DNA of 64,000 nucleotides from Lysinibacillus fusiformis (GTDB taxonomy: Bacteria > Bacillota > Bacilli > Bacillales_A > Planococcaceae): NCBI RefSeq assembly GCF_016925635.1, contig NZ_CP070490.1, forward strand, positions 3,726,001 to 3,790,000. Direction: 5' to 3'. The translations under genes and the position numbers were made by a program. Within the stretch, counting starts at the first letter, position 1. Each line of letters opens with the position of its first letter. The notes below the pieces were generated by a model. It saw only the letters and a list, made by a program, of their open reading frames with translations. It was not told the origin of the DNA and did no database searches. Positions 5,470 through 38,010 of this stretch are shown here, one piece after another.

Positions 5470-5811
5470 GTGAAAGGCTATTTATTTTTAACACTATCGA
5501 TTATAAGCGAGGTCTTGGCAACAACCATGCTGAAATTCTCAGACGGTTTTACTGTACTAGCTCCATCACTGGCGGTCGCAATTGGCTATGGTATTTCGTT
5601 TTATAGCTTATCGCTCTGCTTAAAAACCATGCCCTTAAGCTTAGCCTATGCTATCTGGTCAGGTGTCGGCACAGCTTTAACCGTTCTGGTAGGCATTGTC
5701 ATTTGGCACGATATGTTTACTGTTTATTCTGCGATCGGCATAGCCCTCATTATTGGAGGCGTTATCTTGTTGAATCAGGGGGATAAGGGTGGAGAAGAAT
5801 TGGAATCGTGA
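5470..5811 (+). CDS. SMR family multidrug efflux subunit 2
   Basis: A 113-residue partner of the preceding protein, starting at GTG after AGGAGG. It keeps the membrane glutamate (IISEVLATTMLKFSDGF) and LAYAIWSGVGTALTVLVG. The last codons (EELES and stop) and the following bases match the end of the repeat unit of the adjoining GGATAG array, so the array begins inside the 3' end of this gene and may have replaced the original C-terminus. Confidence 0.9.
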   Translation: MKGYLFLTLSIISEVLATTMLKFSDGFTVLAPSLAVAIGYGISFYSLSLCLKTMPLSLAYAIWSGVGTALTVLVGIVIWHDMFTVYSAIGIALIIGGVILLNQGDKGGEELES

Positions 5812-6420
5812 GTGTAGGCGGATAGAAATGAGAATGTAGCGGATAGCAGGTCTAAATTGAAGGATAGCTTCGCAAAAGAGTCAGAATCAAGAGGATAAGC
5901 GGATAGAAATGAAAAAGTAGCGGATAGCGTGTCTAAATTGAAGGATAGGATTAGCAAAGTGGTGGATAGCTTCGCAAAAGAGTCGGAATCATGAGGATAA
6001 GCGGATAGAGATGCGAAAGTAGCGGATAGCGTGTCTAAATTGAAGGATAGGATTAGCAAAGTGGTGGATAGCTTCGCAAAAGAGTTGGAATCAAGAGGAT
6101 AAGCGGATAGAGATGCGAAAGTAGCGGATAGCGTGTCTAAATTGAAGGATAGAAATAGCAAAGTGGTGGATAGCTTCGCAAAAGAGTTGGAATCAAGAGG
6201 ATAAGCGGATAGAGATGCGAAAGTAGCGGATAGCGTGTCTAAATTGAAGGATAGAAATAGTAAAGTGGTGGATAGCTTTGCAAAAGAGTTGGAATCATGA
6301 GGATAGGCGGATAGAGATGCGAAAGTAGCGGATAGCGTGTCTAAATTGAAGGATAGAAATAGCAGATCAACGGTTAGCAGGCCAGATTCAACGGATAGCA
6401 CTGCCAAAACCGAGGCTTAG
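5797..6420 (+). repeat. GGATAG repeat array A (102-bp higher-order units)
   Basis: GCGGATAG starts units at 5899, 6001, 6103, 6205 and 6307, exactly 102 bp apart, with a shorter 81-bp unit from 5818 and a decayed end. Each unit comprises four 21-nt subunits of the form GNGGATAG plus a variable stretch ending AAAGTR, plus an 18-nt TTGGAATCAAGAGGATAA-like piece. Because 102 is divisible by three, the reverse strand stays open for 210 codons; I regard that as a by-product. No coding gene is supported in this 650-base stretch. Confidence 0.95.
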
Positions 6421-7176: not shown

Positions 7177-7281
7177 TTTCTTTGTGAAGAAGTCGCCATA
7201 TTTTTTGTCGCAACATATGATAACGAGAGGGCAACTTACACGGATCAAATCGCATATTCAAACTAGAGAGGGGGCTACGAA

Positions 7282-7713
7282 TTGAATAGTGATAAGAAAA
7301 AAAATCACTTTTTATGTGAGGCTTTAAGTGATTTGAAGGATCTTCAGGATATCATGATGAATTTTCATTCTAAATATTTTGGTCAGCTACTTATTAAAAT
7401 TGTCGGGAGTGATACGATTCCATTTTTTCTAATTACCCATAGTGGTGCGCATTTAAGCTTATTGGATACAGTGAAACAGTTTGAGACAGAGTTTTTCCGC
7501 ATTGAGGCTGTTGATAGAGAGCGTTGCCGTGGCACAGTGTCGTTGTTGCGTGCTTTTGATTATGAAGGAAACGATACAAATTCGATTGCAGATGTGGTGA
7601 GGTTAGAAAAAACAAGTATAGAAAAATCCATTGAACTCAGTGGGATATCGGCCATTCAGCTCTTAAAGCCAGACATGTTGAAGGGGAAATTTATCATAGA
7701 GCCGAAATGGTAG
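7282..7713 (+). CDS. CotY/CotZ (ExsY)-family spore coat-like protein, cysteine-poor
   Basis: The 143-residue protein follows the CotY/CotZ pattern: DTIPFFLIT, then ETEFFRIEAVD, C-R-GTVSLLRAFD, and a C-terminal IELSGISAIQLLKP. Coat members are normally rich in cysteine and form disulfide-bonded shells; here only two cysteines remain (near residues 12 and 77), so packing would have to work differently. It starts at TTG 9 nt after GAGAGGGGG. A CATATGATA at 7214-7222 fits a sigma-K -10 box but I find no convincing -35, so mother-cell control is only a suggestion. It lies just upstream of a YheC/D coat-type ligase. Confidence 0.72.
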   Translation: MNSDKKKNHFLCEALSDLKDLQDIMMNFHSKYFGQLLIKIVGSDTIPFFLITHSGAHLSLLDTVKQFETEFFRIEAVDRERCRGTVSLLRAFDYEGNDTNSIADVVRLEKTSIEKSIELSGISAIQLLKPDMLKGKFIIEPKW

Positions 7714-7810
7714 TGCCATATTAAACTACTAAAGCTAGAGCATCTGTCTATATGCAAGGGATACAAAGTGAATGTAATAGAGAGAGAATCTAATGAAAGG
7801 AAGTTTAGCT

Positions 7811-9985
7811 ATGACGATTATTGGTATGCTGCATCATCGACTTGATCCAACAACAGTGCTCAAGTCCTATGCCTTTGCAGCAGTTGCGAAAGCTGAAGGC
7901 GCAACGTTTTTTTACTTCACACCTAAAAGTGTGGACTTTGCCAAACGTTCTATTCGAGCAAAGGTCTATGAGGATGGGCAATGGCAGGAAAAAACGATGC
8001 CCTTTCCTGATGTAATTTATAATGCAGGAAGCCCTGAGAAATTATCTGTATCGAAAGAGATTATTGACCGTTTAAAAGAGGAGATTCCATTTACAACGCA
8101 TTCAATCGGGAACAAATGGAATGTGATGAAACGATTACAGGAAGCGAAGGAATTTGAACAATATTTGATTCCCTCTGAAATTGTAAAGGATGCCGATTTA
8201 TTTCATAAGTTCGTTAATTATTATAAACGGGTTGTGTTTAAGCCGATTGATGGACGAAAAGGGAAGGGCATTTATTTTATTATGAAGGCGGGAGCCAAGT
8301 ATTTTGAGGTTCGAAAGGATAGCATCACGACAACCTATACAAAACCACAATTGGATGCATTGATAAAGGAGCAACTTGCGTCTGGCACCTTTATTATGCA
8401 GCCGTATATTCAATCCGTTACTAGATCCGGTCAGGTCTATGATTTCCGTCTGCATGTCCAAAAAAATGGGGAAGGTAAATGGGTAGTGACGACGGTGTAT
8501 CCACGTATTGCACCGAATGGCTCCATCATACCGAATATTAACAATGGCGGCTATACCAATTATTTAGATCCTTTTTTGGAGCAGGAGTTTAAGGAAGAGG
8601 CCTATAATATTCGGCGAATGCTGGAGCATTTTTCGCTATCGCTGGCGCATCATCTGGATGAAATTCAAATGGCGAAATTTGGGGAAGTTATTGATGAAAT
8701 TGGCATTGATGTGGGCTTAGATCAAAATCAAAAAATTTGGATGTATGAGGTCAATTGGCGCCCAGGCTGTCCCCCTGCCTTTTACTTGGAATTAGATGTG
8801 GTCATTCATTCCATTCGCTATGCGATGTATCTTGCGAAAAATCAAAAACCTCTGAAAAAGAAAATTGTCCAACAAAAAAGTAAGCAGGTGGAGACAAAGA
8901 AAAGCCTGCCAATTATTGCGATTACGGGAAGTGCAGGGAAAACCACAACAAAGGCATTTGTTGGCTCCATCTTATCGAAAAAGTGGAATGTATTTGAATC
9001 AAAGGATTATTGGAATACGACGGAGCATACGAAAAAGCATAAGGAAGAGATCAACGATACGCATCAGGCCGTTGTATTAGAGTACGGTATGGCCTATCCA
9101 GGCATTATTACCAATCACTGTAGCATCATCCAGCCGAATATTAGTATTGTGACGAATATTGGCTTAGCGCATGTTGGGAACTTTGATGGAGATGTTAGGG
9201 GCGTTGCCAAGGCGAAATCGGAATTGATTCATGGTATGGATCAACAGGGCTTGCTCATTGTCAATCAAGATGATGACAATTCAAGATACTTAGAGACACA
9301 GCAATTCAAAGGGAAAATCATCACGGTGGGCATTAAAAAAGAAGCGGATTACCGTGCATATGATTTGCAATATAAAGATGTCGGCATGTCCTTTAAAATG
9401 AAGCTACATGGGCAAGAAATAGATTTGTATATTCCTATTTTAGGAGAACATCATGTTTACAATGCACTGAATGCAGTGGCAGTGGCTGATCTTTTAGGGT
9501 TTAGTCCCCTTGATATTCAGGCAGGGCTCAACTTTAAAAAACCGCCAAGACGCTTAACGATTTATAATTGCCGTGATGATATAACGGTTATTGATGATAC
9601 GGTTCACTCTCATCCGCAGGGGGTTCGTGCTGCGCTTGATGTGTTGACGAATATTGCAACGAATCGCAAGGTAGCCATTATTGGGCAAATGCGAGAACTG
9701 GGTGTCTTGAGAGAAGAGGAGTATCGCAAGGTCGGGGAGTACGTGCATGAAATAGGCATCGATGAATTTATTACCTATGGCTTTAGGACCGACGAAATGA
9801 GTAATGCTGCCATCGCAAAGGGCATGGACCCAGCCAGAGTACACCATTTTATTAATAAGGACCAATTGCATGTCCTTCTTGAAAAGCTCATTAAGCCTCA
9901 TGATACCATTCTCGTAAAAGGTGCAAGTAAAACCAATATGTTTGAAACCGTGAAATTTTTAGATCAAACGTTTAAAGAAGAATAA
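7811..9985 (+). CDS. YheC/YheD-type ATP-grasp fused to a MurF-like Mur ligase
   Basis: A 724-residue fusion. Residues ~1-345 are a YheC/YheD coat-associated ATP-grasp domain (GMLHHRLDP start, VVFKPIDGRKGKGIYF, YDFRLHVQKN, ending in the metal-ligand motif YEVNWRPG). After a Lys/Gln-rich linker, residues ~368-724 are a Mur ligase: P-loop TGSAGKTTTK (about 373-381), TNIGLAHVG, a KAKSE lysine that is carbamylated in the family, INQDD-like VNQDD, and a C-terminal domain with DDTVHSHP and ILVKGAS. ATP-grasp plus Mur ligase is the order found in cyanophycin synthetase. The start at ATG 7811 follows AAAGGAAG; an upstream ATG at 7793 has no good RBS. Probably makes a peptide or polyamide for the spore coat (inference). 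Confidence 0.82.
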   Translation: MTIIGMLHHRLDPTTVLKSYAFAAVAKAEGATFFYFTPKSVDFAKRSIRAKVYEDGQWQEKTMPFPDVIYNAGSPEKLSVSKEIIDRLKEEIPFTTHSIGNKWNVMKRLQEAKEFEQYLIPSEIVKDADLFHKFVNYYKRVVFKPIDGRKGKGIYFIMKAGAKYFEVRKDSITTTYTKPQLDALIKEQLASGTFIMQPYIQSVTRSGQVYDFRLHVQKNGEGKWVVTTVYPRIAPNGSIIPNINNGGYTNYLDPFLEQEFKEEAYNIRRMLEHFSLSLAHHLDEIQMAKFGEVIDEIGIDVGLDQNQKIWMYEVNWRPGCPPAFYLELDVVIHSIRYAMYLAKNQKPLKKKIVQQKSKQVETKKSLPIIAITGSAGKTTTKAFVGSILSKKWNVFESKDYWNTTEHTKKHKEEINDTHQAVVLEYGMAYPGIITNHCSIIQPNISIVTNIGLAHVGNFDGDVRGVAKAKSELIHGMDQQGLLIVNQDDDNSRYLETQQFKGKIITVGIKKEADYRAYDLQYKDVGMSFKMKLHGQEIDLYIPILGEHHVYNALNAVAVADLLGFSPLDIQAGLNFKKPPRRLTIYNCRDDITVIDDTVHSHPQGVRAALDVLTNIATNRKVAIIGQMRELGVLREEEYRKVGEYVHEIGIDEFITYGFRTDEMSNAAIAKGMDPARVHHFINKDQLHVLLEKLIKPHDTILVKGASKTNMFETVKFLDQTFKEE

Positions 9986-10011
9986 ACGATTACGACTTCT
10001 GAAGATAAAAA

Positions 10012-10058
10012 AGCCCGAGTAACTGTCCACTGACTAGCGGCAATTATTCGGGATATTT
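10012..10058. terminator. Bidirectional terminator between convergent ligase genes
   Basis: CCCGAGTAA pairs with TTATTCGGG (one G-U) across a 22-nt loop, flanked by AAAAAA on the left and TTTTTTT on the right. Confidence 0.8.
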
Positions 10059-10061
10059 TTT

Positions 10062-11273
10062 TCAAACTCTCAAAATAAATTTTATTTCTTTTGCTGCATT
10101 GATGGCGTGATTTCTCGCTTCCTTCAAGGTTGCACCTTCTGCAATGACATAGGCGTAACGGTGACCCATCGACAAAGGTGGGGTGAGGAGGGTGCCTTTT
10201 CTTGGTTTGACATACACTTCTACGACGCCAGTTGATTTTGTCGCTCTTGCCCTGCCAATAACCTTTTCTAAAATTCCTCTACTTTCCACAATGACATATT
10301 TTGTATAGACAAATTTTTTGTGTCTTGGTTGCAGATTAGGCTGTTCTCCTAGCAAAATCTTCAGTGTTTCTTCTACTAAACTGAAACCTAGTGCTGCTTG
10401 TAGCATATTGTTCATGGCGCCACCTGAAATTCGAGGATTGATCTCGATGAGTTTCCAACCATTTTGGGTTAATCGAAGCTCTAAATGGAGCGCCCCATTC
10501 TCAATACCAAAGGCTTTGACGATGGAATGAAGTACCTCCTCGATGCCTGATTGGATGTTTTGAGGGGCTTTCACTAGTACACCATAGCCTGTAATAATAA
10601 ATCGTTTTCCTTGTGTAATTTCCTGCTCAATAATACCAATGACATGTGGTTGTCGTTGATAGACAACCGCCTCCACTAAATATTGAGGACCATCTAGATA
10701 TTCTTCAATCATGATGGTTTCATAGGGATTTTTACTGCGTAGTGCTTTGAGGTGGTTATTGAGCTGATCGGCATCCGTTGCTAGTAAAACATCTTTTGAG
10801 CCTGTTGATTTAGGAGATTTTACGATTAATGGGAAGGTCAAATTTTTAGCAATGGGTTCGTTAGGTTTCATGAGCGAGAACTTTGGCGAATATGGCTGGT
10901 CTTGTAAAAACTTTCTTGTTTTTTCTTTATCCTCCATGGTTTCAATCGCGCTGGAGGATGTGTAGTTTTGACAAAATTCATCACATAACATTGAAGCAAC
11001 ATGGACAAAGGGATCAACAAAACTCACGATACTTTTAATATTTAATCCGGTTTTTCCTAGTTTCTCTATTTCATCTTTCATGCTCTCGATATCAAAAGTA
11101 TCAATGAGTATCATTTTATGGATGTCGGGGTAGGCTCTGCGCTGCTGAAGTTGTTTTTCATTATTTGTGAAAAGTACTGTGAAGTAGCCTAATTTTTCTG
11201 CTGCCCTTGTTGCTTCACGACTAGACCCAGATTTGTTTGTACCGATAAATACAATGGCTTTCAGGTATATCAC
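10062..11273 (-). CDS. ATP-grasp ligase, amino-acid-ligase-like
   Basis: About 400 residues. An N-terminal nucleotide-fold (IVFIGTNKSGSSREA) is followed by an ATP-grasp domain: FPLIVKSPKSTGSKDV (ATP lysine), MIEEYLDGPQYLVEAVV, and GALHLELRLTQNGWKLIEINPRISGG with the Glu/Asn metal ligands. This layout is that of carboxylate-amine ligases such as BacD/RizA-type dipeptide ligases. The start is uncertain: AGAAGGAG is followed by GTG (11273, overlapping the RBS) and by CTG (11264, ideal spacing). It lies on the opposite strand between the fusion ligase and two MurF-like genes, sharing an upstream region with the latter. Confidence 0.8.
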   Translation of the reverse strand: MIYLKAIVFIGTNKSGSSREATRAAEKLGYFTVLFTNNEKQLQQRRAYPDIHKMILIDTFDIESMKDEIEKLGKTGLNIKSIVSFVDPFVHVASMLCDEFCQNYTSSSAIETMEDKEKTRKFLQDQPYSPKFSLMKPNEPIAKNLTFPLIVKSPKSTGSKDVLLATDADQLNNHLKALRSKNPYETIMIEEYLDGPQYLVEAVVYQRQPHVIGIIEQEITQGKRFIITGYGVLVKAPQNIQSGIEEVLHSIVKAFGIENGALHLELRLTQNGWKLIEINPRISGGAMNNMLQAALGFSLVEETLKILLGEQPNLQPRHKKFVYTKYVIVESRGILEKVIGRARATKSTGVVEVYVKPRKGTLLTPPLSMGHRYAYVIAEGATLKEARNHAINAAKEIKFILRV

Positions 11274-11413
11274 TCCTTCTATTGGTACTTAGATACTTAA
11301 TCACCTTTATATATATGCAATGAAATAGATTTCCTCTAGTTATGTATCTTGTCTACATCCAAGCAACTTTTAAGAGGTTACATATACTAGAAAAGAAAGG
11401 AGGGAGAAAAGAT

Positions 11414-12808
11414 ATGAAGCCTCTTTCGGTGAAAAATTTAGCAATGATTACGGCAGGCTATCTAGTGCACGGGTCAGAGGATACACTGATTCAGCATGGG
11501 GCTTATCGATTAAAACAAGTGAAAAAGTCCAATACGGCCCTTTTTACAAGTAAACGTATTGTCAATTGGAAAAGTCTAGAGCCACTTTCTCCTCTGGTGC
11601 TAGTGACCGATAGAGCTTATCGACCAACTGACATTCCCAACCATGTCATTATGATACAGGTAGCGAATGCAGAAGAGGCCTACTGGAAATTTGTTCATTT
11701 TTATCGCAGCCAGTTTCATATTCCGATTGTCGCCATCACAGGTACATCAGGTAAAACAACGACAAAAGAGATGATTAAACATATTCTTTCGGCTGATCGG
11801 AAAGTGACTGCGACGACACTTAGCAGTAATTCTAGAACCGCTTCCCTGCAATATTTATTAGGTATAGAGGAAGAAACAGAGGCTGCCGTTTTTGAAACAG
11901 CAGTTGGCTCACCAGGAGATGTCACGAATGCGGGGAAATATTTCAAACCGACAATCGGTATTATTACGAATATCGGAGCCCATCATTTAAATTATTGCAA
12001 AACATTAGAAGGCTATATCCAAGCAAAGGGAGAAATGCTAGATATCATTCATCCAAAAGGTACATTAATAATCAATGCTGAAGATGTGAATACAAAAAAA
12101 ATAGATGTTTCGAGATTTCGTGGGCGTTTGATTAAGGTAGGAATGCATGATTCCTGTGATTTTCGAGCGAGCCATATCCACTATTATCAAAAGGGAATGA
12201 AATTTGTCCTGCACCATAACAGAAAAAGCTATGACATTCATGTGCCAGGATTTGGGGAGCATCAGGTTTATAATGCCCTTGCTGCCATTGCCGCAGTGTA
12301 CGATATGGGGATGCCTATTCCAGTCGCAGCAAAACAGCTCCAATCATTCCGTCAATTGAAAAAACAACTGCAACTCTTTGAGGGCATTAATCATTCCATG
12401 TTATTGGATGATACATGGAGTATTACAACCACTTCCTTAGAGGCAGCCTTAAAAGTGTTGAATGAGCTAGGTGACGGCAAGAAGAAGATTGCTGTTATTG
12501 GTACGATTACCGATTTAGGTTCGTGGGGCTATATTATTCACGAACAAGCGGGCGAATTAATCCAACGTATTGGCGTGGATGTCCTGATTACCATTGGGGA
12601 GCATGCAAGGATTATGGCTGATCATGCAGTAAAGCTAGGATTTAGCGCACCTGTTTATACATTTAAAAATAGTACGCTAGTCTATCCGTTATTGCAGAAG
12701 ATTGTCGATGAAAATACCATCATTCTCATTAAGGGAGATATGTATAGCAAACAGGTTTCTACACTAGCAACGGAGCTAAAGCTAAAACCTCCACCACCTG
12801 CAAATTAG
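11414..12808 (+). CDS. MurF-like Mur ligase paralogue 1
   Basis: A 464-residue three-domain Mur ligase. The N-terminal ~100 residues keep the MurF fold pattern (MKPLSVKNLAMITAGYLVHG) but lack clear UDP-binding signatures. The P-loop is ITGTSGKTTTKEM (about 108-120), followed by TNIGAHHLNY, LEGYIQAKGEM with the family lysine, and INAEDVNTKK. The C-terminal domain has DDTWSITTTS where MurF has DxYNANP, so acceptor recognition probably differs. ATG 11414 follows AAAGGAGGG at 9 nt; the frame extends upstream but without an RBS. Closely similar in plan to the next gene. Not the housekeeping murF, which normally sits beside ddl. Confidence 0.82.
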   Translation: MKPLSVKNLAMITAGYLVHGSEDTLIQHGAYRLKQVKKSNTALFTSKRIVNWKSLEPLSPLVLVTDRAYRPTDIPNHVIMIQVANAEEAYWKFVHFYRSQFHIPIVAITGTSGKTTTKEMIKHILSADRKVTATTLSSNSRTASLQYLLGIEEETEAAVFETAVGSPGDVTNAGKYFKPTIGIITNIGAHHLNYCKTLEGYIQAKGEMLDIIHPKGTLIINAEDVNTKKIDVSRFRGRLIKVGMHDSCDFRASHIHYYQKGMKFVLHHNRKSYDIHVPGFGEHQVYNALAAIAAVYDMGMPIPVAAKQLQSFRQLKKQLQLFEGINHSMLLDDTWSITTTSLEAALKVLNELGDGKKKIAVIGTITDLGSWGYIIHEQAGELIQRIGVDVLITIGEHARIMADHAVKLGFSAPVYTFKNSTLVYPLLQKIVDENTIILIKGDMYSKQVSTLATELKLKPPPPAN

Positions 12809-12950
12809 CTTCTTTCCATATAGGATATTGACTGTGCCATATAGAAGAGCTTGCTAATAAGGTATAGTAATTGATCAAAAGGCAGCACGCTAGATCAAGA
12901 GAAAAAATAAGTCATCTACAAGATTGATAAAGAGAGGAGGCGTAGTACAC

Positions 12951-14336
12951 TTGCAATCTATTAGTGTGCAAAAACTTAGGAATGTCCTACAGGGAAAGCT
13001 CATTCACGGATCAGATCAATGGTCTGTTAAGCAGGCAATCTACTATAATCGGCATGATTTAACAAAAAGTCATTCACTTATGTTTGTTAGTCGAAACGAT
13101 CAAATCAATTGGCAAGAGATTGATCGGAAAGGTCCGTCTCTCATCATATCCGATAAACCGTCTACAGAGTTAAAAAATGCACTAGCGAATACAACCGTTT
13201 TACAAGTAAAAAGTGTTGCACAGGCCTACTGGACATTTATCGAGTATTATCGTGGACTCTTTCAAATTCCCGTTGTGGCTTTAACAGGAACTTGTGGTAA
13301 AACAACAACAAAAGAGATGTTAAAACATATTGCTAGTAAACATTGGCAAGTGCAAGCATCTGTCAGCAGTAAAAACGAGCCAAGGCAATCACTACCTTAT
13401 TTGACGGGCATTGATGATAAAACACAAGCCGCTATCTTTGAATTAGGCTTAGGGAATACGGGGAATATTAAACATCAATGTATGATCTATCAACCGACTA
13501 TCGGGATTATTACAAATATTGGTGTGCATCATCTAGATGGCTGTCTCAATCTGGAAGGCTATATTAAGGCCAAATCAGAAATTGTGGAAGGTATTAAAGA
13601 GGATGGCACATTAATCATCAATGCTGATGATGCCAATACCAAAAAAATCTCATTGAAAAGATTTAAAGGGAAGATTATCAAGTTTGGCTTACAGGATACG
13701 GCAGATTATAAGGCTTCGAAAGTAGAGTTTGCCAATACGGGTATGAAGTTTGTTTTAGAAGTAGCGGATGAAACGTACAATGTATTTGTCCCTGGCTATG
13801 GCGAGCATCAGGTCTATAATGCTTTAGCCGCCATCGCAGCTAGTCATGAAATGGGTCTGACCATTCGTCAGGCAATAGCAGGGCTAAGAACGTTTAAACA
13901 GATGGCAAGACATTTAGAATTTACGACAGGACTTGGTGACAGTACGATTATTGATGATACGTGGACAAATAACCCGACATCTGTAGAGGCAGCCTTAAAA
14001 GTGTTAGATACGGTAGGAAAAGACAAAAAAGTCATTCTCGTTTTAGGGGATATTAAGCGATTAGGCAATTTTGAAGAAAAATATCATCGCGAAATCGGCT
14101 CCATGGTAGCACTAAGAAAGATCGATACATTAATTACCATCGGCAAAAGGGCAGAGAAAATTGCCGATCAAGCACAAAAGGATGGAACCAGCGCAGAGGT
14201 TCATACGTTTAAAGAGGTAGTAGGCGTTTTAGAATTATTGAAACCAAAGCTTGATGCAGACACGATTGTCTTAATAAAAGGACCAATGTCTAGTAGATCC
14301 ATGATTGAATTTGCCAATAAACTGAAAAACGCATAG
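12951..14336 (+). CDS. MurF-like Mur ligase paralogue 2
   Basis: A 461-residue protein, clearly a paralogue of the preceding one (SVQKLRNVLQGKLIHGS; P-loop LTGTCGKTTTKEML at about 111-124; TNIGVHHLDG; LEGYIKAKSE; INADDANTKK). The acceptor-site motif reads DDTWTNNPTS, nearer to MurF DxYNANP than its neighbour. TTG 12951 is chosen as start because GAGAGGAGG precedes it by 10 nt and it aligns with the N-terminus of paralogue 1; an upstream TTG at 12924 precedes the RBS. The 142-base gap before it shows no clear promoter or terminator. A strong terminator follows. Confidence 0.82.
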   Translation: MQSISVQKLRNVLQGKLIHGSDQWSVKQAIYYNRHDLTKSHSLMFVSRNDQINWQEIDRKGPSLIISDKPSTELKNALANTTVLQVKSVAQAYWTFIEYYRGLFQIPVVALTGTCGKTTTKEMLKHIASKHWQVQASVSSKNEPRQSLPYLTGIDDKTQAAIFELGLGNTGNIKHQCMIYQPTIGIITNIGVHHLDGCLNLEGYIKAKSEIVEGIKEDGTLIINADDANTKKISLKRFKGKIIKFGLQDTADYKASKVEFANTGMKFVLEVADETYNVFVPGYGEHQVYNALAAIAASHEMGLTIRQAIAGLRTFKQMARHLEFTTGLGDSTIIDDTWTNNPTSVEAALKVLDTVGKDKKVILVLGDIKRLGNFEEKYHREIGSMVALRKIDTLITIGKRAEKIADQAQKDGTSAEVHTFKEVVGVLELLKPKLDADTIVLIKGPMSSRSMIEFANKLKNA

Positions 14337-14377: not shown

Positions 14378-15733
14378 TTATTTTAAAACACGTCGAGCGG
14401 TTACAAAATTCTTTTGTGCCCAAGTCGAAGAAATGTTTTGTTTCACAATATTATTAGTTGTCATACTAATATATTGGTTATTCCCTATATAAATACCCGT
14501 TTGAGTGATTTCTTGTCCACCATTATTCGTAGAGAAGAACAGTAGATCCCCTTTTTGAAGCTGTGATTTTTGAATACGTGTCCCTACTAAAGCCTGTTTA
14601 CTTGCTAGTTTATCTTTTAAATCAATACCATGCTTTTTAAAGACATAATAAGTAAAACCCGCACTTGTAAAAGTCAGTGCACTCTCATTGTACGTATAAC
14701 CGAATTTTGCTTTGCTTGTTAAGCCCGAAGCAGTGGCAATAATTTTATCGGCAGATGTACTTGCTGAAGGTGCACTTACACTGGGTGTAGAGGTGCTATC
14801 AGAGAAAACGCGCTTCGCTGTAATATAATGTTCAGTATAATAATCTACAAATAACACTCTTGTCATCACACCATCTGAATTAGGGATAATGATACGATGA
14901 TCACCTGCATAAATTCCGACAAGTGAAGGTGTTTTAGAGCCTTTAACACTATTAAAGAAGACTAAATCACCCTTCTTCAAGTTAGCACGTGCCACAGTAG
15001 ATCCTTGACTCATTAAATCGTTTAATGAAGTTGAGCCGAGTGTCACACCACTTTTACGATAGATGAAATCAACAAAAGTTGGAGCTGTAAAGCGTAGACT
15101 AGCCTCATTTGTTGTTGAGCTAATCGTTACTTTGTTTTTATATGTGAGGGCATTCTCTACAATTTTATCGCCTTTTGTAGCTGGATTGGCAGATAGTAGG
15201 GTAGGTAATACTCTACGTGCAGATACATAGTTTTCCGTATAATACGGCTTACTATTTAAATCAGAGATAACAATATTTTGTTTGGTATCAGCCATGTGGA
15301 TGATTTTATTGTCTCCGATATACATACCGACATGATCGGGATCAGTCCCTGTTTTTTTACTTTTAAAGAACACTAAATCGCCTTTTTGTAATTGGTTTCT
15401 CGCTACATAGGTCCCTTGCTGAATCATATAATTTTCATTATACGTACCAAGGTCTACCCCGTTTTTCTCGAAGATGTACATTAAAAATGAAGCACAAGAA
15501 AATTTGTATGGGTATGTAGGCTTGTAAACCGAATTGCTGTATGTTGCTTGCCCCATTAAGCTTTTACCAGTCTGAATTAATTGGTCTGCTTTTGCAGCTA
15601 CCGCCTGTGCGTTGTTCTGGGCATTGGTTGTCGCAGCCTCTACTTGTATCGGCTGGATCGCTGTTTGCACCATTCCAAATGAACTAAATCCAATTGTTAA
15701 TGCAAGTGTTGTAGATAAAAATCGTTTATTCAT
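14378..15733 (-). CDS. Secreted protein with three NlpC/P60 domains, two lacking catalytic residues
   Basis: A 451-residue protein with a signal peptide (about 1-34, ending VEA) and three NlpC/P60 repeats. Repeat 1 has Cys80, His134 and His146 in the expected places (FSCASF, DHVGMYIG, IIHM). In repeat 2 the same positions are Ala217, Leu271 and Ile283; in repeat 3 they are Ser357, Gln411 and Ser423. The residue spacing (54 and 12) is identical in all three. Only the first can be a cell-wall endopeptidase; the others probably bind wall or have a structural role. A Ser/Thr/Pro-rich linker (about 311-327) precedes repeat 3. The RBS AGGAGG precedes ATG. It is monocistronic. Confidence 0.9.
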   Translation of the reverse strand: MNKRFLSTTLALTIGFSSFGMVQTAIQPIQVEAATTNAQNNAQAVAAKADQLIQTGKSLMGQATYSNSVYKPTYPYKFSCASFLMYIFEKNGVDLGTYNENYMIQQGTYVARNQLQKGDLVFFKSKKTGTDPDHVGMYIGDNKIIHMADTKQNIVISDLNSKPYYTENYVSARRVLPTLLSANPATKGDKIVENALTYKNKVTISSTTNEASLRFTAPTFVDFIYRKSGVTLGSTSLNDLMSQGSTVARANLKKGDLVFFNSVKGSKTPSLVGIYAGDHRIIIPNSDGVMTRVLFVDYYTEHYITAKRVFSDSTSTPSVSAPSASTSADKIIATASGLTSKAKFGYTYNESALTFTSAGFTYYVFKKHGIDLKDKLASKQALVGTRIQKSQLQKGDLLFFSTNNGGQEITQTGIYIGNNQYISMTTNNIVKQNISSTWAQKNFVTARRVLK

Positions 15734-15976
15734 GTTGTGTATAACCTCCTAAAGCATCTAGTAGGATTTCTCCTGTATACCTTTGCCATGGAAATAATCG
15801 TAGCATGAAAATGTAGGGCTTCTGGGCGGTAAATGTTACCAGGGTAACGGAAGGTAGGGCCTCAACACTTGCTATAAAAGGCTTTATCAAGGGAATTTAC
15901 AGTTTTATTACAAATGTTTCAGTAAGATGTAATATGGAACAATTCCATGAAAAAAACTGCCCCAAAACGAGGCAGC

Positions 15977-16342: not shown

Positions 16343-16402
16343 CTCATAACGCCCCCTTTTTCCTTAATTATAGAGTAATTTCTAAATATTTGAAATCGAA
16401 GA

Positions 16403-16993
16403 GGAGGAAAGCTGGTAAACAGGTGGATAGAATCTCAAAAGTGGAGGATAGCGTTCTAAAAGTGGTGGATAGAATCATCAAAGAGAAGGATAGCGTTTAA
16501 ACAGGTGGATAGAACTCCGAAAGTAGAGGATAGCGCTCCAAAACTGGCGGATAGAATCATCAAAGAGAAGGATAGCCTCTAAACTAATGGATAGAATCAT
16601 CAAAGAGAAGGATAGAATTTAAACTAGTGGATAGCACTCCAAAAGTAGAGGATAGCGTTCTAAAACTGGCGGATAGAATCATCAAAGAGAAGGATAGCCT
16701 CTAAACTAGTGGATAGAACCTCAAAAGTGGTGGATAGCACTCCGAAAGTAGAGGATAGCGCTCCAAAACTGGCGGATAGAATCATCAAAGAGAAGGAAAG
16801 CGCTTAAACAGGTGGATAGAATCTCAAAAGTAGAGGAAAGCGTTCTAAAACAGGTGGATAGAACTCCGAAAGTAGAGGATAGAAATCCAAAAGTAGAGGA
16901 AAGCGTTCCTAAACTAGTGGTTAGAACCTCAAAAGTGAAGGATAGCACGCCAAAACTAGTGGATACAACCTCAAAATTGAAGGAAAGCGCGAC
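16403..16993 (+). repeat. GGATAG repeat array B (82-bp higher-order units)
   Basis: About 28 degenerate subunits of ~21 nt such as GTGGATAGAATCTCAAAAGTG. The first four subunits measure 21, 21, 21 and 19 nt, giving an 82-bp unit (GTGGATAG at 16423 and again at 16505). Subunits alternate endings AAAGTG, AAACTG, CAAAGAG. Toward the right end GGATAG decays to GGAAAG or GGATAC. Short open frames on both strands here are repeat shadows. Fills most of the gap between the VOC gene and the riboswitch. Confidence 0.95.
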
Positions 16994-17045
16994 ATTTCTA
17001 TGCTGTTAAGATTTAATACTATGGTATAATAATAAAAACGGAATA

Positions 17046-17220
17046 ATAGGATAGAGGTACAAATCCGATTTTTGGATTTGTTTAAAAGGGAAGATCGGTG
17101 TGAATCCGACGCTGTCCCGCAACTGTAAATGGGAGCACATTTCAAAAGGCCACTGTTACGAGTCGTAATGGGAAGGTGAAAGGTGTGATGAACATGAGCC
17201 AGGAGACCTGCCTTTATCTA
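17046..17220 (+). ncRNA. Cobalamin (B12) riboswitch
   Basis: The conserved cobalamin-aptamer blocks occur in order: GGGAAGATCGGTGTGAATCC, GACGCTGTCCCGCAACTGTAA, a CACTG/ACGAG segment, then the B12 box GCCAGGAGACCTGCC at 17198-17212. GAGGTA near 17055 and TGCCTTTAT near 17210 can close the outer stem. Normally controls B12 transport, synthesis or B12-independent enzymes, but only short ORFs follow here. CCTA and TAGG near 17234-17248 could hide the following ribosome site. Confidence 0.95.
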
Positions 17221-17259
17221 GTACAGCCAAAAAACCTACGCGGATAGGGGGTGTTGAGT

Positions 17260-37741: not shown

Positions 37742-38010
37742 CGGATACGCAATAAGTAGGTGGATAGAAAAGGAAAAGTAGCGGATAGAACGTGAGAAGT
37801 GGTGGATACAGCAGAGAAAGTGGAGGATACGCAATAAGTAGGTGGATAGAGAAGGGAAAGTAGCGGATAGAACGCGAGAAGTGGTGGATACAGCAGAGAA
37901 AGTGGAGGATACACAATAAATTAGTGGATAGAACAAGAAAAGTTGCGGATAGAACGTGAGAAGTGGTGGATACAGCAGAGAAAGTGGCGGATACACGCAT
38001 CAAGATGAGG
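37742..38010 (+). repeat. GGATAG array C, right part (82-bp units)
   Basis: GTGGATAG begins units at 37760, 37842 and 37924, exactly 82 bp apart. Each has four subunits: GTGGATAGAAAAGGAAAAGTA, GCGGATAGAACGTGAGAAGTG, GTGGATACAGCAGAGAAAGTG and a 19-nt GAGGATACGCAATAAGTAG. Open frames on the minus strand here are repeat shadows. The remaining ~130 bases to the MarR gene contain its regulatory region. Confidence 0.95.

Follow-up and report, generated by a model that had tools for sequence, protein, structure and literature searches.

A spore-linked locus of YheC/D ATP-grasp, Mur and amino-acid ligases in Lysinibacillus fusiformis and its relatives

A 64,000-nucleotide stretch of the Lysinibacillus fusiformis genome (hereafter the window; G000:C1:3726001-3790000 of a 5.01 Mb host genome, with all positions below given within the window) carries at 7282-14336 five genes whose set is kept across many genera: one for a CotZ-type coat protein, one for a YheC/D-type ATP-grasp ligase fused to a Mur ligase, one on the opposite strand for an ATP-grasp ligase of the L-amino-acid-ligase type (LAL), and two for separate Mur ligases, Mur-A and Mur-B. 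In the samples that we searched, the locus is restricted to genomes bearing the sporulation gene spoIVA. We propose, with a confidence that only just passes the halfway mark, that the locus is a sporulation-associated non-ribosomal amide-ligase module whose product, a short peptide or polyamide, goes to the spore coat.

The five genes and their occurrence in spore formers

A search for open reading frames (ORFs) combined with a Pfam scan gave the following features.

7282..7713, plus strand: CotZ-family coat-type protein, 143 aa
7793..9985, plus strand: YheC/D-type ATP-grasp ligase fused to a Mur ligase, 730 aa in one frame
8084..8833, plus strand: YheC/D ATP-grasp domain of the fusion, residues 98-347 (Pfam)
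8921..9925, plus strand: Mur ligase middle and C-terminal domains of the fusion, residues 377-711, without a Mur N-terminal domain
10062..11273, minus strand: ATP-grasp ligase of the L-amino-acid-ligase type (LAL_C2), 403 aa
11342..12808, plus strand: separate Mur ligase A, MurF-like, ORF of 488 aa, conserved start probably at 11414
12924..14336, plus strand: separate Mur ligase B, MurF-like, ORF of 470 aa, conserved start probably near 12948

A preliminary description, made from the sequence alone, had placed here a coat-type protein, a YheC/D ATP-grasp/Mur-ligase fusion, a stand-alone ATP-grasp with amino-acid-ligase features and two MurF-like paralogues, and the ORFs and domains agree with that reading. 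The fusion passes three Pfam cut-offs in a single frame (ATPgrasp_YheCD, 210.4 bits, cut-off 26.8; Mur_ligase_M, 120.6, cut-off 24; Mur_ligase_C, 62.7, cut-off 28.4), the LAL passes those of LAL_C2 (66.7 bits, cut-off 29.4) and ATP-grasp_4 (60.2, cut-off 27), and both separate Mur ligases are MurF-like in sequence and match Mur_ligase_M, Mur-A with 138.7 bits and no Mur_ligase_C reported, Mur-B with 132.9 bits together with Mur_ligase_C (62.3). The locus thus holds five ligase domains spread over four proteins, since the fusion contains two. The main catalytic residues checked in the fusion are kept, and D306, E319 and N321 of its YheC/D ATP-grasp domain are invariant in 29/29 aligned sequences. 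The coat-type label stands at the level of the family, 19/20 members of the alignment (window copy counted) matching CotZ (PF10612) at E<=0.1, with a best value of 1.9e-15; it does not stand for the window copy alone, which reaches 14.0 of the 24 bits required (E 0.057). A protein at the same position in another genus passes the CotZ cut-off with 29.8 bits and aligns with the window's CotZ-like family at an hhalign E of 6e-36.

The word island, also used in the preliminary description, is not apt. The G+C content of the cluster is the same as that of the remaining window and gene order is conserved across genera, so we rejected a genomic island (no search for mobile elements was made), and the locus looks like a stable chromosomal one. 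Judged by the fusion protein, the nearest named relatives are Lysinibacillus boronitolerans and L. capsici, at 98% identity. No published description of the locus or of a YheC/D-Mur fusion was found among the titles and summaries that searches of an open-access library returned.

When named genomes were scanned with the fusion alignment, the best 80 of 128 relatives gave 79 loci, all of them thus found by the fusion itself; some end at contig edges. Five without a fusion ORF of more than 650 aa were dropped, and the remaining 74 carry a LAL in 73 cases, Mur-A in 68, Mur-B in 55 and any separate Mur protein of more than 350 aa in 70, together with a CotZ-like protein (61), an NlpC/P60 protein (66), a second YheCD protein (36) and a small protein with the motif MGxICPCG (29). 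The loci come from Lysinibacillus, Psychrobacillus, Sporosarcina, Neobacillus, Lederbergia, Domibacillus, Solibacillus, Metasolibacillus, Jeotgalibacillus, Peribacillus, Heyndrickxia and Calidifontibacillus, with further ones in unassigned Bacillus and in one Clostridia metagenome-assembled genome (MAG). When genes from 139 loci were clustered into families, the six largest were exactly those of the cluster; the others reach at most 34 loci and are mostly confined to one genus. Two exceptions were examined, a chemotaxis-type receptor in 16 loci and an amino-acid permease in 8. The permease (Pfam AA_permease_2) occurs in several genera (L187:20499-21884, L098:2023-3408, L182:2525-3943 and five more; G and L numbers denote genomes and loci), in 3/8 loci directly beside a cluster gene. 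A second lineage has a compact set of LAL, CotZ-like and YheCD genes without a Mur ligase (L102, L104, L106, L110-L114); its locus L109 has a Mur and further YheCD proteins nearby. In other genera, the MGxICPCG protein, which bears Cys residues and for which no Pfam or NCBIfam family was found, lies between Mur-A and Mur-B with one or two further YheC/D ATP-grasps (L081:11339-13134, L090:11730-14655 and others).

Co-conservation, which the preliminary description had left to be checked, is thus present, and it extends to 151 genomes of the family: 56 carry both a YheCD/fusion match and a LAL, 3 only the former, 2 only the latter and 90 neither. The fusion query used here (E<=1e-60) takes in full fusions as well as YheCD-only and Mur-only homologues, and our reading of the match table gives 40 full fusions within its 59 hits.

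The link to spores that had been suggested is borne out in the same sample. spoIVA is present in 117 genomes (a few broken or partial copies included), among them 59/59 carriers of a fusion-query match and 58/58 carriers of a LAL, and 0/34 genomes lacking spoIVA carry either; Fisher tests give p values of 3e-9 (fusion query) and 7e-9 (LAL), uncorrected for relatedness. Wider samples concur. At the level of the class, 12/398 genomes have a match at E<=1e-120 (one as split genes, one as YheCD alone), all within the 265 that carry spoIVA. At the level of the phylum, the 7/378 genomes matching at E<=1e-75 are the window's own, which has spoIVA, and six others, and these six together with five further genomes carry spoIVA in 11/11 cases.

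The upstream regions of the cluster genes contain predicted promoter-like elements, two of them in the window.

7196..7222, plus strand: predicted promoter-like element CCATATT-N11-CATATGATA, upstream of the CotZ-like gene
11381..11389, plus strand: predicted -10-like element CATATACTA, just upstream of the Mur-A ribosome-binding site

The first recurs as YCATAKT-N11-CATANNNTA at the CotZ-like promoter in 17/18 Lysinibacillus relatives, and we take CATANNNTA to be the -10-like core of mother-cell promoters. The spoIVA promoter of the same genus, examined as a control, reads TCATATT-N14-CATATAGT, the CotZ-like spacer being 3 bp shorter. Across loci, CATANNNTA lies upstream of 25/42 LAL2, 26/62 CotZ-like, 40/71 Mur-A, 22/57 Mur-B and 24/74 LAL1 genes and of 42/532 others. 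After removal of similar upstreams, it remains in 76/163 pooled cluster upstreams versus 32/367 for other genes, where the five pooled groups were chosen after the first counts had been seen and the fusion (5/37), MGxICPCG (0/22), second YheCD (4/30) and third YheCD (8/23) groups were left out as probably co-transcribed. Predicted -10-like elements of sporulation type are therefore enriched upstream of cluster genes. The full sigma-K and sigma-E patterns, motifs for which are described in PMC517825, gave 0 to 3 matches per gene group, except for a loose sigma-E pattern in 15/62 CotZ-like upstreams.

The ligases and their closest known relatives

The arrangement of the fusion recalls cyanophycin synthetase (CphA1), which is known to combine an ATP-grasp with a Mur ligase on a single chain (PMC9427784, PMC11915815); the order of the two is the same. 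Unlike that enzyme, the fusion has no CphA N-domain, its ATP-grasp belongs to the YheC/D family and its Mur domain is nearer to MurF; it scores 61.2 on TIGR02068, far below the cut-off of 850, and it stands in a spore context with a LAL and two more Mur ligases. The 50 solved structures listed as matches include none to the YheCD part alone, which is uninformative because that part was modelled only within the fusion. We class the locus as a cyanophycin-synthetase-like ATP-grasp/Mur pair with new Mur clades, and as a member neither of the cyanophycin synthetases nor of MurF.

Outside the window, the same pair occurs in other arrangements. Separate, adjacent YheCD and Mur genes are found in G254 (L225) and Bacillus sp. 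MRMR6 (L196). In the Clostridia MAG (L195:9998-14609), an apparent operon YheCD-Mur-Mur-LAL lies entirely on one strand, the first Mur starting in frame directly after the YheCD stop codon, and G562 has the same genes. Moreover, G075 (L115:7486-11474) and G090 (L116:5741-9774) encode a fusion of reverse order, Mur-YheCD, in an apparent operon, and a 797-aa homologue, 52% identical along its entire length, occurs in the distant genome G747. That YheCD and Mur ligases are fused in both orders and adjoin each other elsewhere is a strong sign that they act on one substrate. In L108 (G176) we observed an apparently decaying copy, with fusion fragments of about 100 aa adjoining a 382-aa Mur.

With the YheC and YheD proteins of Bacillus subtilis, the fusion shares the ATP-grasp family PF14398 and a link to sporulation; it differs in that its clade is fused to or adjoins a Mur ligase and is linked to a LAL. 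We know of no Mur or LAL link of B. subtilis YheC/D. PMC7911427 describes YheD of that species as a spore-coat protein without known function that appears as rings and then as a shell round the spore, and the coat localisation in that account is of B. subtilis YheD only.

The LAL shares LAL_C2 and ATP-grasp domains with L-amino acid ligases such as BL00235. Its second and third best matches among solved structures, 3vot and 4wd3, are L-amino acid ligases, whereas the best, 4dim, is deposited as a phosphoribosylglycinamide synthetase; the cluster enzyme is further set apart by its linkage to YheCD and Mur proteins, and dipeptide-forming activity is a prediction for it.

The Mur proteins share with MurF the fold, most catalytic residues and a MurF-like sequence. 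Neither paralogue is the housekeeping enzyme, in agreement with the preliminary description, which had also named an essential murF function of one paralogue as grounds for dropping its proposal: the murF of this genome lies elsewhere, beside ddl at about 1.24 Mb of G000:C1, and scores 421 bits on the MurF model TIGR01143 (cut-off 288.6). On that model the three cluster Mur proteins reach 250.5, 245.8 and 259.3, and the housekeeping MurF controls 411-458 bits (9/9 scanned, of the 11 in the tree; L216 and L221 were left out). In a midpoint-rooted tree of 63 rows, two of them duplicates, the 11 MurF form a clade of their own (99/98) and the cluster Mur domains form two others (100/98 and 100/100), the branching among the three being unresolved. 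On these grounds, we rejected either paralogue as the housekeeping murF. The N-domain motifs also differ. Neither Mur-A nor Mur-B keeps DTR and GH.F, which we take to be the UDP-sugar-binding site of MurF (the genome's own MurF reads DTR...GHKF), and the fusion lacks the domain. The loop motif NDAYNASP of MurF is replaced by DDTVHSHP, DDTWS.TT and DDTWTNNP in the cluster proteins. By what we take to be the list of invariant Mur-ligase catalytic residues, fusion-type rows keep all, and Mur-A and Mur-B keep all except an Arg.

The locus also resembles the archaeal pseudomurein peptide-ligase clusters, where several Mur ligases and an ATP-grasp protein occur in wall-peptide gene clusters (as presented in PMC11915815). 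Here, by contrast, the context is the spore, the clades are bacterial and MurF-like, and no MraY-like gene occurs among the labelled families, although no dedicated search was made for one.

Proposed product and alternatives

In the sequence of steps that we infer, the LAL-type ATP-grasp would most likely supply a small unit, a dipeptide. The Mur ligases would join units of this kind, or individual amino acids, to an acceptor bearing a carboxylate; their relative MurF attaches a dipeptide when peptidoglycan is made. Like the two active sites of cyanophycin synthetase, the YheC/D domain and the Mur part of the fusion would work as a pair on one growing substrate. The product would most likely be synthesised by the mother cell and end up within the coat or on its surface, together with the CotZ-type protein and, in other genera, the MGxICPCG-type small proteins. 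L. sphaericus C3-41 is reported to be without many sporulation genes, spoVID among them (PMC3533761), and may therefore have a different coat.

A lead on the amino acids comes from relatives. In G075 and G090, the gene immediately upstream of the reverse-order fusion encodes an amino-acid racemase, the G090 homologue being 79% identical; that of G075 matches Pfam Asp_Glu_race (119 bits) and the NCBIfam models for cysteate racemase (209.6, cut-off 190) and asp_race (172.1, cut-off 93.1). A racemase with 57% identity occurs in the Lederbergia citri locus, and this search found no such gene in the window's own locus. The racemase is of aspartate/cysteate type and suggests, as a lead only, that some versions of the module, at least, use an acidic D-amino acid. 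Three small proteins with an NSGNS motif also lie by the reverse-order fusion in these two genomes; Pfam (all three) and NCBIfam (one) returned only a chance match (E 0.21).

Several observations weigh against the proposal of a coat peptide or polyamide. The LAL is transcribed from the other strand, opposite to the fusion in 72/72 copies with more than 50% identity. The conserved Arg is replaced by Gln or His in 13/13 Mur-A and by His in 11/11 Mur-B-type sequences (the latter with a conserved Arg one residue before the His), and the loop Pro by Thr or Ser in 12/13 Mur-A, so that Mur-A, Mur-B or both could be inactive. The structure model of the fusion has a pLDDT of 85.9 and a pTM of only 0.60, and its alignment with cyanophycin synthetase spans both domains at an rmsd of 24 A; the domain packing is thus not predicted to be alike. 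The -35 elements of the predicted promoters fit neither sigma-E nor sigma-K spacing. No LAL was found in 6/11 genomes with more distant Mur homologues, and distant-type Mur proteins can therefore do without one; these six are the genomes in which the query matched just the Mur part or the reverse fusion. Since 77/117 spoIVA-bearing genomes of the family have no full fusion, it is dispensable for sporulation, an accessory that most of the spore formers sampled do without. Finally, the genomes behind the family counts are related to one another and thus not independent observations, and the fusion itself was the query that gave the 79 loci.

Among the alternatives, the ligases might tag coat proteins such as the CotZ-like and MGxICPCG proteins, whose side chains or C-termini would receive amino acids or short peptides, with no free polymer. 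Coat-type genes do lie inside the locus, and relatives of the YheCD part are weakly similar, below curated cut-offs, to the RimK and tubulin-tyrosine-ligase ATP-grasps. We nevertheless find tagging unlikely: in the sets aligned, identity to the window copy goes down to 17% for the CotZ-like proteins but not below 43% for the four enzymes, so no conserved acceptor is evident, and the presence of two to three Mur ligases points to more than one step of addition. We would assign a rather slim chance to a small diffusible peptide that is produced at sporulation without becoming part of the coat, as a pigment, a protective metabolite or an inhibitor of germination. LAL-type ligases make dipeptides, the second and third best solved matches of the LAL are such enzymes, and the eight permease-bearing loci span several genera, though only three have the permease directly beside a cluster gene; against this, the neighbour that recurs widely belongs to a coat protein family, and no transporter recurs so among the annotated neighbours.

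Slimmer still is the chance that the Mur ligases modify peptidoglycan precursors of the cortex during sporulation. The preliminary description had named the cortex beside the coat as a target; for the cortex the evidence is negative, given the lost MurF N-domain motifs, the missing domain of the fusion, and scores of 246-259 bits on the MurF model against 411-458 for the housekeeping enzymes, which form a separate clade. A chance neighbourhood of unrelated ligases, to which the strand of the LAL and the apparently vegetative NlpC/P60 gene might point, is hardly credible for a set kept across many genera and rebuilt elsewhere as an apparent operon and as fusions of both orders.

In a wider reading, many endospore formers may make a new non-ribosomal spore polymer with a cyanophycin-synthetase-like enzyme composed of YheC/D and a new Mur family, possibly with D-aspartate or cysteate, which would also give the YheC/D coat proteins a function. 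We regard this generalisation as possible but doubtful. What the comparison does establish is that the YheD family is tied to Mur ligases and an amino-acid ligase by fusion in two orders, an apparent operon and co-occurrence, and that the locus defines two Mur-ligase clades separate from MurF. A coat protein of unassigned role, YheD, thereby acquires a testable enzymatic hypothesis, the making of a non-ribosomal peptide or polyamide in spores.

Neighbouring features

Downstream of Mur-B lie a conserved neighbour gene and a box upstream of it.

14378..15733, minus strand: triple NlpC/P60 hydrolase, conserved neighbour (Pfam)
15897..15912, minus strand: WalR-type box TGTAA-N6-TGTAA, upstream of the NlpC/P60 gene

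Taking TGTWA-N6-TGTWA as the WalR box consensus, we found the box in 50/69 NlpC/P60 upstreams and, among non-redundant ones, in 24/38 versus 2/367 for other genes; in the window alone, one match was found where 0.91 are expected by chance, so the evidence is its conservation in relatives. Of eight divergent loci (L173, L174, L175, L181, L182, L184, L185, L186), only L173 has the box; in four of them, L181 and L184-L186, the gene and Mur-A point the same way. Because of the box in relatives and a signal peptide, seen by eye at the start of the protein, the NlpC/P60 protein is probably a vegetative wall hydrolase, and we rejected it as a core part of the biosynthetic module in Lysinibacillus, though it is a neighbour in 66/74 loci.

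Elsewhere in the window, three tandem-repeat arrays share a GGATAGAA-type core (5862-6364, 16395-16984 and 37743-37995; units of 21 to 122 bp), and a 210-aa ORF at 5775-6407 on the minus strand is merely a reading of one of them. An Rfam scan of the window returned nothing except a cobalamin riboswitch outside the locus (RF00174, 119.3 bits, 17038-17229, plus strand), which lies upstream of genes that by eye encode a TetR-type regulator and an alcohol-dehydrogenase-type protein.
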